Assembly: GCF_902809865.1 (NCBI RefSeq)
Contig: NZ_CADDWH010000001.1
Location: forward strand, 1,054,001 to 1,118,000
DNA: 64,000 nucleotides
Direction of reading: 5' to 3'
Source: Halobacillus sp. Marseille-Q1614
GTDB taxonomy: Bacteria > Bacillota > Bacilli > Bacillales > Halobacillaceae
This document shows positions 14,764 through 42,766 of this stretch, piece by piece. The first letter of the stretch is position 1. Every line of letters begins with the position of its first letter. The notes under the pieces were generated by a model. The model was not told the DNA's origin, did no database searches, and worked only from the letters and a program-made list of their open reading frames with translations. Both the position numbers and the translations under genes were made by a program.

Positions 14764-14844
14764 GAAGCTGAAATTAAGAGAGTTTTGTCGTAAGCTTTAA
14801 AGGTTAGTATACCCAGATCAATCTAACTAAATACTAAAGCGAAT

Positions 14845-15046
14845 GACTGCAGGGGGAGAGTCTACATAAACGTAGCGCCGAAGGAGCAAGCAAGAAATTG
14901 TGAATCTCTCAGGCAAAGCAGACCTCTGTAGGACGCAGCTCTGGAGAGTGTTTATCAAAGGAATAAACCACCCAAGAAGCAAGCGTTAGGTGCGTAATGG
15001 AACGTATGGACAACGTGAAACTTTCTGGTGAACGGACAGAGACTCC
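14845..15046 (+). promoter_or_regulatory. Tandem glycine riboswitch
   Basis: Two glycine aptamers precede gcvT. The first (about 14848-14950) carries the conserved GGGGGAGAG, GCGCCGAAGGAGCAAG, CTCTCAGGCAAA and CTCTGGAGAG blocks. The second (about 14955-15046) shows CACCCAAGAAGCAAGC, GTGAAACTTTCTGG and the closing GGACAGAGACTCC. The double-aptamer gcvT type is well established: glycine binding turns on glycine-cleavage genes. Here the second aptamer runs directly into a terminator stem, so control is probably at transcription termination. Confidence 0.93.
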
Positions 15047-38439: not shown

Positions 38440-38675
38440 TGAGTGAGGAAAAAAACGATATCAGCTTTGAAGAAGCGATGAAGCAGCTGGAAGAGATTGT
38501 ACAGAAGCTGGAAACTGGAGAAGTACCTTTAGAAAAAGCTATTCAGTATTATCAGGAAGGGATGCAGCTCTCCAAATTGTGTAATGAAAAGCTAGGAAGT
38601 GTAGAAAAACAAATGCAGCAGATTTTAAATGAACATGGTGAATTTGAAGCTTTTGACGTTCAGGAGGACGAATAG
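38439..38675 (+). CDS. xseB: Exodeoxyribonuclease VII small subunit
   Basis: A 78-residue helical protein with the family signature [23 protein letters not shown], binding the coiled coil of XseA in a multi-subunit complex. GAGGAGG lies just before ATG 38439. Its stop shares a base with the ispA GTG. Confidence 0.95.
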
Positions 38676-39556
38676 TGGCGTCGTTACAGGCATATGTGGA
38701 AAAGAATAAAGGTTATATTAACGAACAGCTTGAAATGTATGTGCAAGAGTACACGAGAGAAGGACGTTTAAGAGATGCAATGCTTTATTCCATCCGAGCG
38801 GGTGGAAAGCGGCTGAGACCGGTTTTAGTGCTGGCTGCATTAGAAGCATTCGGTTCACCAGTATCGAGAGGAATCAGCACCGCCTGCGCTTTAGAAATGG
38901 TTCACACGTACTCGTTAATCCACGATGATTTGCCCGCTATGGATAACGACGATACGAGAAGAGGCCAGCCGACTAATCATATGAAATTTGATGAGGCAAC
39001 AGCCATTTTAGCGGGTGACGCGCTGCTTACTTTAAGCTTTCAAGTCATTTCAGAAGACGTTCAGCTTTCTGACAGCGAGAAGGTTTTTCTAATTAACGAA
39101 CTATCGAGAGCCAGCGGGCCTATTGGTATGGTGAATGGTCAGATGCTGGATATGCAGAGTGAAGATGAGTCGATCAGCCTCGAAGCACTTGAATACATTC
39201 ATAAAAATAAAACCGGTCAGCTGCTCAGGTTTTCAATTCTTGCGGGCAGCTATTTAAGCGGCGCAGATGAAATAAAGCTGGCTGAAATGCTGAAAATGGC
39301 AGAAGCTCTCGGCATGATTTTCCAAATTCAGGACGATATTTTAGACGTGATCGGTGACGCTGAAGCAATCGGCAAGCCGACGGGCAGTGACGTTTCAAAT
39401 CAAAAAAGCACCTATCCACAGCTGCTTGGCCTAGAAGGGGCTGTCGAGCAGAAGGAACGTTATGTTCAAATCGCCCAGCAGTCTTTAAGAAGGGCGGACG
39501 TGGCAAATACGATGCTGTCTGAATTAATTGACTACTTAAGCCAGCGAAACCACTGA
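38675..39556 (+). CDS. ispA: Farnesyl diphosphate synthase (polyprenyl synthetase)
   Basis: Condenses IPP with DMAPP and GPP to farnesyl diphosphate, the precursor of undecaprenyl phosphate and menaquinone side chains. The 293 residues contain the first aspartate-rich motif DDLPAMDNDDTRRG near residue 85 and the second IQDDILDVIGD near 225. It begins with GTG 38675 (GGAGGACGAA upstream). The OLE RNA begins 60 bases after its stop, and dxs, the first enzyme of the MEP pathway, follows oapA. Confidence 0.95.
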   Translation: MASLQAYVEKNKGYINEQLEMYVQEYTREGRLRDAMLYSIRAGGKRLRPVLVLAALEAFGSPVSRGISTACALEMVHTYSLIHDDLPAMDNDDTRRGQPTNHMKFDEATAILAGDALLTLSFQVISEDVQLSDSEKVFLINELSRASGPIGMVNGQMLDMQSEDESISLEALEYIHKNKTGQLLRFSILAGSYLSGADEIKLAEMLKMAEALGMIFQIQDDILDVIGDAEAIGKPTGSDVSNQKSTYPQLLGLEGAVEQKERYVQIAQQSLRRADVANTMLSELIDYLSQRNH

Positions 39557-39577: not shown

Positions 39578-39607
39578 TTGAGCAACAGAAGTGATTTATG
39601 GTATATT
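39578..39607 (+). promoter_or_regulatory. SigA extended -10 promoter of the OLE RNA
   Basis: TTGAGC (39578-39583), an 18-base spacer and TATATT (39602-39607) with the TGn extension (39599-39601). The predicted start, about 39613-39616, coincides with the 5' pairing end of the RNA. Confidence 0.65.
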
Positions 39608-39615
39608 GTATTTAC

Positions 39616-40224
39616 AAAAGGAATGGTGCAGTATTCTAGTCGGTCCTCCGTTCCTGAAGGCGGGCCTAAAAATCCGCCGAAGGGCACATCGATGAAGTTC
39701 CTTGTGCCGGCTTGAGGCGCCCAGCCTTGGGTCGGTGCTGGGAGTTAAGGTTGCAGGGCGATCCACAAAGGCATGTGGGCGTTGACCCGGCTTCCGCGGA
39801 GGCCCATCTTTGTGAGGGAATCTTGCCAGAGACTCTTATGAAATGGGGTATGAACCTACATTTTATGGATATCATTCTATAAAAGTAGCGTAGCCTGCCT
39901 TGAGTGGTTGCTGAGGGGATTATAGTCATGAACATTCCATTATTCAGATGGCCACTGAACGATGGAGTTGTATACTATATGAAATCAGTACTGCAAAAGA
40001 GGCTAAGGAACGGCTAAAGACTGTCGGGGAAATCCCCTAGACTGTTCAGTGGACATAAATAAGGAATTATAGTGCGGACTAAGTGGCAATCTAGTCCAGC
40101 TTACGGAGACGGAGCTGATTTGGATTTAAAGGGGAACCGCCAGAGTGGTGACGCTCGGTATCCAAATGGGAAAACCTACTAGACCTAAGCCGTAATTTTT
40201 ACTTTATTTATGACCATTCCTTTT
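39616..40224 (+). ncRNA. ole: OLE RNA (ornate, large, extremophilic)
   Basis: A structured non-coding RNA of about 609 nt filling the 700-base gap between ispA and oapA, its established location in extremophilic Firmicutes. The ends are defined by a perfect 12-bp pairing: AAAAGGAATGGT at 39616-39627 with ACCATTCCTTTT at 40213-40224. Inside are many local helices: GGCGG/CCGCC near 39659-39678, CACAAAG/CTTTGTG (39764-39770 with 39808-39814) with a nested pairing, GGGG/CCCC near 40028, and ATTTGGAT/ATCCAAAT (40118-40125 with 40160-40167). No sensible ORF covers it, and it is GC-richer than its surroundings. OLE RNAs associate with OapA at the membrane and are linked in Bacillus halodurans to tolerance of cold, short-chain alcohols and magnesium stress. 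Identity rests on length, folding and gene context. Confidence 0.93.
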
Positions 40225-40258
40225 CTACATACTAAATACTTAACAATTGGGGTTAAGA

Positions 40259-40858
40259 ATGAATAAAAACTTAAAAAGATCAATTAAATTCAGTGTGAGT
40301 ATTGCCGTTATCACTTTTGTGTTAGCGGCTATTTTTTCAATTGTATCTAACTCCGTGATGAGCGGCGTGGCCTGGGGTATAGGGTTAATCATCGTTCTTC
40401 TTATTGTATTGACAGGCGTTGTTTTTGATATGCTAGGAATAGCTGCAACAGCTGCAGACGAGCCGCCGTTTCATTCAATGGCTGCAGAAAAAATTTCCGG
40501 AGCTAAAGAGGCGATAATCATCGTCCGAAACGCAGACAGGTTTGCAAGTTTCTGTAACGATGTGATAGGGGATATATCTGGTATAGTAAGTGGAACGGCC
40601 TCTGCTGTGGTTGTTATTCAGCTTACGAACGTTCTAGGTTCATCTGAGGGTTCCGGCCTTCAATTAACTTTGTCAGTGCTGCTGACAAGTATTGTGGCTG
40701 CAATCACCGTGGGCGGAAAGGCCGTAGGAAAGTTTCTTGCGATTCATTCTTCAACAAAAATTATTTTGTGGGCAGCACGTGTGATTGCGTGGATTGAATC
40801 GAATTTAAAGATAAATATTATATCGGTCTCAACCAAATCCACACGAAAAACACGATAA
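40259..40858 (+). CDS. oapA: OLE-associated protein OapA
   Basis: A 199-residue membrane protein with about four transmembrane helices (residues 10-30, 35-60, and two between 115 and 165), a charged N terminus (KNLKRSIK) and a basic C-terminal tail (STKSTRKTR). The conserved core DMLGIAATAADEPPFHSMAA, with RNADRFASFCNDVIGD, matches the protein encoded directly after OLE RNA. OapA binds OLE and directs it to the membrane. ATG 40259 is chosen (GGGG upstream); a TTG at 40247 is the longer alternative. It lies 35 bases after the OLE 3' end and 18 before dxs, and is probably read from the OLE promoter. Confidence 0.92.
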   Translation: MNKNLKRSIKFSVSIAVITFVLAAIFSIVSNSVMSGVAWGIGLIIVLLIVLTGVVFDMLGIAATAADEPPFHSMAAEKISGAKEAIIIVRNADRFASFCNDVIGDISGIVSGTASAVVVIQLTNVLGSSEGSGLQLTLSVLLTSIVAAITVGGKAVGKFLAIHSSTKIILWAARVIAWIESNLKINIISVSTKSTRKTR

Positions 40859-40876: not shown

Positions 40877-42766
40877 ATGGATCTGTATAAAATTAAAGAT
40901 CCTTCTTTTATAAAGGGGATGTCAATTGATCAACTTAAAGAATTATCAAGCGAAGTACGAAAGTTTTTAATTGAAAATCTTTCATCGACCGGAGGACACC
41001 TTGGAGCAAACCTTGGAGTAGTTGAGCTGACGCTGGCCCTGCACAAAGTTTATGAAAGCCCGAAAGATCGGTTTCTATTCGATGTGGGACACCAGTCTTA
41101 CATCCATAAGATATTGACAGGCCGGGCAGGAAAGTTCGATACGCTCAGAAAGTATCAGGGGCTTTGCGGCTTTCCTAAACGCAATGAAAGCGAGCACGAT
41201 GTCTGGGAAACGGGTCACAGTTCCACATCTCTTTCAGCAGCCATGGGAATGGCAATCGCAAGGGACTTAAACGGAGAAAAACATTCTATTGTACCGATAA
41301 TCGGAGATGGAGCTCTTACGGGCGGGATGGCATTAGAAGCTTTGAACCATATTGGGGACGAGAAAAAGAATGTAACCGTTATTTTAAATGATAATGAAAT
41401 GTCAATTGCCCGAAATGTAGGAGCTCTTCATGGAGCTCTCGGACGTATGAGAAGTGCAGGTAAGTACAACCGGGCAAAAGATGATTTAGAATGGTTGCTG
41501 AAACGAATTCCAGCTGTCGGAGGAAAACTGGCACAGGCGGCGGAACGGTTAAAGGACAGCATGAAGTATTTCATCGTACCCGGCATGTTTTTTGAAGAAC
41601 TGGGCTTTACTTATTACGGTCCGGTAGACGGCCACGATTACAACGATCTTTTAGAAAACTTGAACTATGCCAAGAAGACAGAGGGCCCTGTAATAGTTCA
41701 CGTGATTACTCAAAAAGGAAAAGGGTATCACCCGGCTGAATCGGATCAAAAAGACAAATGGCATGGTGTTGGACCTTATAAAATTGAATCGGGTGAAAAA
41801 ATTAAAGCTGCTGATGCTCCTCCAGCGTGGAGCGAGGTCATTAGTGAAACGCTTAGAAAAGAAGCCCGTAAAGATAAAAGAATCGTTGCCATTACGCCGG
41901 CGATGGTGCTTGGCTCAAAACTTGAAAAATTTCAAAATGAATTCCCATCACGGCTGTTTGATGTGGGGATTGCCGAGCAGCATGCGACTACACTTTCTGC
42001 AGGGCTTGCCACTCAAGGCATGAAGCCTTTTTTAGCGATTTACTCAACGTTCCTTCAAAGAGGATATGACCAGGTGATTCATGATGTAGCGAGGCAAAAC
42101 CTGAACGTGATGTTTGGAATTGATCGTGCGGGATTGGTAGGAGCTGACGGGGAGACTCACCAGGGAGTGTTTGATGTCGCGTTCCTTCGCTCTATTCCGA
42201 ACATGGTGCTCATGATGCCAAAAGATGAAAACGAAGGCCAGCATATGGTTCATACGGCAGTCCACTATAATGACGGCCCTATCGCTTTGCGTTATCCTCG
42301 CGGAAATGGGATAGGCATTAAAATGGATGAGCAGCTTTCTCCAATTTCAATTGGAAGCTGGGAAGTTCTAAAAGAAGGTTTAGATGCTGTAATTCTAACC
42401 TTTGGCACCACGATTTCATTAGCTTTAAAAGCGAGTGAGCGATTAGGCAAAGAAGGTTATTCAGTCCGAGTAGTCAATGCCCGGTATATTAAACCGATGG
42501 ATGAAGCGATGCTGCATGACATCATGAAAGAGAATTTGCCGATTCTTACTATTGAAGAGGCTGTTCTGCAGGGAGGATTCGGCTCAAGTGTGCTCGAATT
42601 TAAATCTGATTACAGCTACACGTCAGCGGTAAAACGCCTGGGCATTCCTGATCGGTTCATTGAACACGGAAGCGTGGACAAGCTATTAGAAGAAGTCGGC
42701 TTAACGGAAGAAAATGTAATAAATGAAATTAAACATATGACAATGACTAAACAACAGAGGGCTTAA
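40877..42766 (+). CDS. dxs: 1-deoxy-D-xylulose-5-phosphate synthase
   Basis: Thiamine-diphosphate enzyme making DXP from pyruvate and glyceraldehyde-3-phosphate, the first step of the MEP isoprenoid pathway. The 629 residues show the N-terminal [21 protein letters not shown], the ThDP motif [19 protein letters not shown]...NDNEMSI, the second domain [13 protein letters not shown] and the transketolase C domain. A strong ATAAGGAGGTCC precedes the ATG. Together with ispA it brackets the OLE-oapA unit. Confidence 0.96.

Follow-up and report, generated by a model that had tools for sequence, protein, structure and literature searches.

Whether the OLE RNA lies beneath the cell membrane or passes through it is the question raised by a 64,000-nucleotide (nt) stretch of the Halobacillus sp. 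Marseille-Q1614 genome (contig NZ_CADDWH010000001.1, positions 1,054,001 to 1,118,000 of the forward strand; hereafter the window), in which an OLE RNA gene stands directly upstream of the gene for its membrane protein, OapA. A 2025 proposal has the RNA cross the bilayer and, if true, would make OLE a natural membrane-spanning RNA (PMC12265935). Our comparisons lead us to favour another explanation, which taken as a whole we hold to be moderately probable: an OLE dimer on the inner face of the membrane, regulating an OapA that is inserted one way only. The family has been known since 2006 (PMC12265935) and the window copy is itself ordinary, a typical full-length OLE RNA; what the analysis adds to the known family are comparative results bearing on the location of the RNA.

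A preliminary description of the window had placed an OLE RNA of about 610 nt between ispA and oapA. The covariance-model check (cmscan, Rfam) matched RF01071 (OLE) at 39607-40233 on the plus strand with 505.4 bits (E-value 2.6e-145), far over the gathering score of 50, and covered the model untruncated from 1 to 616 of 616. The outer ends of the terminal helix P1 enclose 609 nt, the two named genes flank the RNA (Table 1), and the identification is virtually certain. The genome holds a single copy, and the gene order (ispA-type synthase, OLE, oapA, dxs, tlyA-type gene) is the neighbourhood described for OLE. The earlier statement that the biochemical action of these RNAs is unclear agrees with the position taken in the parts of the OLE literature available to us.

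All 246 OLE-adjacent OapA proteins were positive-inside, with a minimum charge bias of 9. The inner-minus-outer charge was at least 3 in 246 of 246 when the N-terminal part was limited to the 15 residues preceding helix 1 and the C-terminal tail left out, and at least 1 in the same number using the inner loop alone. Proteins were read from the first in-frame start codon, so that some are overextended at the N-terminus (up to 378 amino acids, aa), and one protein was cut (137 aa). Dual-topology proteins have a charge bias near zero, unlike OapA, and the uniformly positive-inside pattern implies that OapA sits in one orientation. In an AlphaFold2 model of the window OapA (long helices; predicted local distance difference test score, pLDDT, 90.6), residues 37-193 fit the CNNM fold, while the match to PF01595 is weak and below the curated cut-off. 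Both aspartates of the DxxxD motif, D101 and D105, were invariant in 50 aligned OapA, taken from 98 listed references (246 in all).

The published proposal treats OLE as an integral membrane RNA: helix P3/P3.1 spans the bilayer, domain 1 is cytoplasmic, domain 2 is outside, and OapA occurs in both orientations. It derives from cryo-electron microscopy (cryo-EM) geometry (PMC12265935), and an OapA charge bias that is never near zero speaks against it. So does OapB, the domain 2 binder according to the literature. A gene for OapB is present in the window's genome (best PDB match 7k9b, OLE-associated protein B; E-value 8.2e-32), between open reading frames (ORFs) that we take to be map-like and infA-like. 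No secretion signal was found in OapB from 30 of 40 genomes, using a hydropathy window and not a dedicated predictor; L300 reached 2.27 in a stretch read as lying inside the fold, and the starts of L317 and L318 are uncertain. OapB matches were observed in 40 of 40 genomes, the distant ones being weak (E-values up to 2.3e-5) and possibly including other KOW proteins; the share has been given as about 60% (PMC11332333).

The length of P3 can be read both ways. The alignment used here began with 272 sequences (271 loci and the window), of which 7 without an anchor match and 6 without the 5' anchor were dropped to leave 259, and removal of 8 exact duplicates left 251; loci were taken in descending order of match score, which leaves variant OLE RNAs under-represented. 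P3 and P3.1 together form 14.2 +/- 1.1 pairs (range 11-16), close to the roughly 14 base pairs (bp) said to be needed for crossing (PMC12265935). Their 5' strand is 15 or 16 nt long in 248 of the 251 sequences, although it comes in 185 different versions, and the mean energy of the helix is -17.1 kcal/mol for native strands vs -8.3 kcal/mol for strands swapped between sequences. The putative P7, P8 and P9 arms vary widely in length (standard deviations of 5.9, 5.4 and 10.9 nt). P3 length was tried as a test of membrane crossing and dropped, since the 3' strand varies between 15 and 21 nt in length and since P2, P4, P10 and P11 are fixed more strictly; it fits a rigid spacer of any kind and does not single out a helix that crosses the membrane. 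Positive-inside OapA, its CNNM fold and an OapB without a signal all speak against an external domain 2 and a two-way OapA, and we consider a membrane-spanning OLE rather unlikely.

The preliminary description had reported perfect 12-bp pairing of the two ends. The 5' end (AAAAGGAAUGGU) is exactly complementary to the 3' end (ACCAUUCCUUUU), and counterparts are conserved in relatives: the median number of end pairs across the 251 sequences is 10, and it falls to 6 if each 5' strand is combined with a 3' strand from a different sequence, a remainder that reflects conserved inner bases. In a test set of 80 sequences (the first of the 149 most diverse), changes on both sides were found for 11 of 12 P1 pairs, 5 of 5 P3.1 pairs and 7 of 8 P3 pairs. 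Cells of P1, P2, P3.1 and P3 were paired in 89.9% of cases; shuffling lowered this to 75.1% and sliding to 48.5% at most. A weak spot of P1 is its outermost pair, unpaired in 50 of 79 sequences, so that the complete 12-bp helix belongs to this species and the part held in common is about 8-11 bp; the two outer P3 pairs were likewise unpaired in 32 of 78 and 36 of 64 sequences. Judged by its compensatory changes, the P1 end pairing is real and family-wide, the outermost pair excepted. The structure line of RF01071 leaves both ends unpaired, omitting P1, and also omits the putative P2 and P3 helices, yet all three are backed by covariation or full conservation in the sequences compared. The published OLE model names both P1 and P3 (PMC12265935), so the pairing result confirms them and does not discover them.

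The CUAG of P2 is invariant, and P2 cells were paired at 99.5% and 100% in the same 80 sequences. Its 5' strand is probably one of the two OapA sites in the literature, and the palindrome CAUCGAUG is probably the other, that in P4a (PMC12265935). The window RNA also holds two dimer-contact loop sequences, namely the A-rich loop of P4, a dimer contact by cryo-EM (PMC12265935, PMC12286853), and the GGCC palindrome of P9, the kissing loop of the OLE dimer (PMC12286853). A total of 128 alignment columns were invariant among the 80 sequences. So many invariant bases in so large an RNA would also suit a ribozyme, an idea put forward by the discoverers of OLE (PMC11332333); the OLE literature, in the parts available to us, names no reaction, and dimer contacts and protein sites account for part of the conservation. 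That OLE is a ribozyme of an unnamed reaction seems to us improbable.

OLE appears to have its own promoter. An extended -10 element with a start at P1 had been proposed for the window, and the predicted start, 39614-39616, coincides with the outer end of P1. The significance of this promoter comes from position-conserved copies in relatives, as a scan of the window alone found 4 promoter-like sites vs 3.2 expected, which is not significant. All 69 loci of one set, made up of the window and 68 found through OapA, show the extended -10 at -27 to -20 before GGTGCAGT; they are kin and hence not independent. The same interval holds it in 86 of the remaining 178 loci, and five equally wide control intervals gave 0-2 of 69 and 4-18 of 178. 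The count took in 247 of the 251 aligned sequences. No promoter for ole is described in the portions of the OLE literature available to us. In Halalkalibacterium halodurans the cluster is transcribed as one polycistronic RNA (PMC12265935), which a dedicated ole promoter does not contradict.

The position of OLE ahead of oapA raises the further explanation that the structure is a cis-acting leader controlling oapA expression and not a separate RNA. Because 80 of the 271 loci had been found through OapA, adjacency was counted on 183 others, and oapA follows directly 3' of OLE in 178 of these. The window scan found 4 terminator-like sites (1.4 expected), with none between OLE and oapA. Both points would suit a leader. 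The RNA itself, however, is reported to bind OapA and to localise to the membrane (PMC12265935), and linkage to oapA is not universal, as a draw of 299 genomes of the class made clear. With OLE counted over the cut-off and OapA at E-values up to 1e-8, OLE was present in 69 genomes and OapA in 70, with both in 69; that the two draws were the same was judged from the listed genomes, the 209 without a match being listed in neither. The sole OapA-only genome (G733) has its match ending 116 nt from a contig end. An OLE match of 22.9 bits in G587 was under the cut-off and left out, and an OapA fragment at a contig end in G561 was counted. Near-complete mutual inclusion of OLE and OapA has already been reported (PMC11332333).

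Seven of the 69 genomes (G503, G510, G522, G614, G625, G645, G655) have oapA either over 3 kb from OLE or on a different contig, a state not described in the OLE literature as available to us. All seven keep the extended -10 at OLE, and in all seven a hairpin and T run, read by eye, start about 16-46 nt past the first base of the 3' strand of P1; the T run of L267 is interrupted, and L348 and L349 were judged by eye alone. A script found a site of this kind in 4 of 5 unlinked loci vs 16 of 246 linked loci; it passed over L252, where the eye readily picks out both hairpin and T run. An element that is not always in cis cannot be a leader of oapA throughout the family; we rejected this explanation and regard it as highly improbable. 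OLE is best seen as a free-standing RNA gene, since the unlinked loci keep the promoter and end in a terminator, and its retention alongside a distant oapA shows that more than linkage holds the two together. These loci define an ole gene apart from its usual operon and offer useful starting constructs for complementation.

Several observations concern the unlinked genomes themselves. Their OapA proteins (L282-L288) have lost the near-invariant F56 and C99 and kept D57, D101, D105, K154 and K158. An OLE-independent OapA paralogue was considered as the source of these divergent proteins and rejected, as the 230 genomes without an over-cut-off OLE yield only the G733 match. Five of the seven (L284-L288, being G614, G645, G522, G625 and G655) carry a gene for a tandem-CBS protein upstream of oapA on the same strand, with gaps of about 130 to 830 nt and, in L288, an intervening ORF on the opposite strand. 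In MpfA/CorC, a CBS pair is part of the same polypeptide as the CNNM domain. One family accounts for four of the five genomes, and shared descent may explain the proximity. In a single case, G503, the unlinked oapA (L283, 701-1369) is convergent with a TerC-family gene (PF03741). YkoY belongs to the TerC family. Cells deleted for ole-oapA reportedly grow again when ykoY is overexpressed (PMC10898510).

Brought together, these results suggest the following mechanism. OLE would start from its own promoter at the outer base of P1 and be closed by that helix, and it would occur together with OapA even where the genes are unlinked, three steps supported by comparison. Others have shown that OLE dimerises and that OapA brings it to the membrane. 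A one-way OapA would have a cytoplasmic loop and tail, both rich in lysine and arginine, which may hold the P2 and P4a palindromes that flank P3, and this would place the RNA dimer at the cytoplasmic surface of the membrane. The dimer may then serve OapA as its regulatory part, and could relay magnesium, manganese, cold or alcohol stress. In this view OapA is a metal-ion transporter of CNNM type that lacks the usual CBS and CorC domains. A further form of the idea, on which our judgement is evenly divided, is that OLE is not transmembrane at all: OapA would be one-way across Bacillota, its cytoplasmic cationic face meeting both sites flanking P3, OapB would bind domain 2 in the cytoplasm, and the whole dimer would lie flat against the inner side of the membrane, acting in trans in place of the CBS/CorC part of a CNNM-type transporter. 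The charge pattern of OapA, the signal-less OapB and the genomes with unlinked ole and oapA serve as simple tests of OLE placement.

Table 1. Positions of the OLE RNA, its elements and neighbouring genes in the window.
Feature	Position	Strand	Remarks
ispA-type farnesyl diphosphate synthase (polyprenyl synthase)	38675-39556	+	upstream neighbour
Promoter	39578-39607	+	-35 TTGAGC 39578-39583; 18-nt spacer; extended -10 TG-G-TATATT 39599-39607 (TATATT 39602-39607)
OLE RNA	39616-40224	+	bounds are those of terminal helix P1; RF01071, 505.4 bits
P1, 5' strand	39616-39627	+	pairs with 40213-40224
P2, 5' strand	39628-39639	+	GCAGU 39628-39632; palindrome CUAG 39636-39639; pairs with 40037-40045; helix name a putative assignment
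P3.1 and P3, 5' strand	39641-39655	+	39641-39645 and 39648-39655; joins domains 1 and 2
P4 hairpin	39659-39678	+	A-rich loop; 20 nt in 251/251 sequences
Palindrome	39687-39694	+	putative OapA site in P4a
Putative P7 arm	39803-39847	+	our own assignment
Putative P8 arm	39856-39888	+	our own assignment
P9 arm	39897-40003	+	self-complementary GGCC loop 39950-39953
P3 and P3.1, 3' strand	40006-40023	+	40006-40013 and 40019-40023
P2, 3' strand	40037-40045	+	
P1, 3' strand	40213-40224	+	
oapA	40259-40858	+	199 aa; four putative transmembrane helices; CNNM-like fold; DxxxD at D101/D105
dxs	40877-42766	+	downstream neighbour

The nearest relatives of the window OapA are from Halobacillus, with H. massiliensis at the top (91% identity). 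An OapA on contig L151, titled Roseburia sp. 1XD42-34, is 70% identical to it and stands amid Bacillaceae matches, and the record is probably mislabelled. Elsewhere in the window, two RF00504 matches (66.0 and 38.1 bits) mark a tandem glycine riboswitch at 14843-15041, just 5' of what are presumably a gcvT-like ORF and two glycine-dehydrogenase-like ORFs. The genome also encodes two CNNM proteins, 447 and 415 aa long (L350, C1:1833013; L351, C1:2163027), which to judge by their sequences look like full CNNM-CBS-CorC proteins. Species with OLE, in contrast, are said typically to have at most one MpfA-type protein (PMC11332333).

The window OLE is closest to the full-length type (RF01071) studied in H. 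halodurans. It shares with that type the whole model, the ispA/oapA/dxs neighbours, helices P1, P2 and P3, the A-rich loop of P4, the GGCC loop of P9, and genes for OapA, OapB and OapC. The last is an L7Ae protein, presumably of YbxF type, whose gene lies next to what we take to be an rpsL-like ORF. YbxF has been identified as OapC (PMC9723947). Only ordinary sequence variation separates the window copy from this type, a comparison made with the type and not base by base with the H. halodurans copy. OLE variants 1 and 2, from the TANB77 and RF39 clades, have many conserved bases in common with it and differ in that P7 and P8 are short or missing (PMC11332333), whereas the window has both putative arms. 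ROOL and GOLLD RNAs are likewise large, ornate and homo-oligomer-forming (PMC12286853), but their structures differ from that of OLE, and neither came up in the Rfam scan of the window. OapA, finally, shares with the CNNM/CorC/MpfA metal transporters the fold predicted for residues 37-193 and the weak PF01595 score, and is set apart from them by an extra first transmembrane helix, the lack of CBS and CorC domains, the DxxxD motif and an RNA partner.
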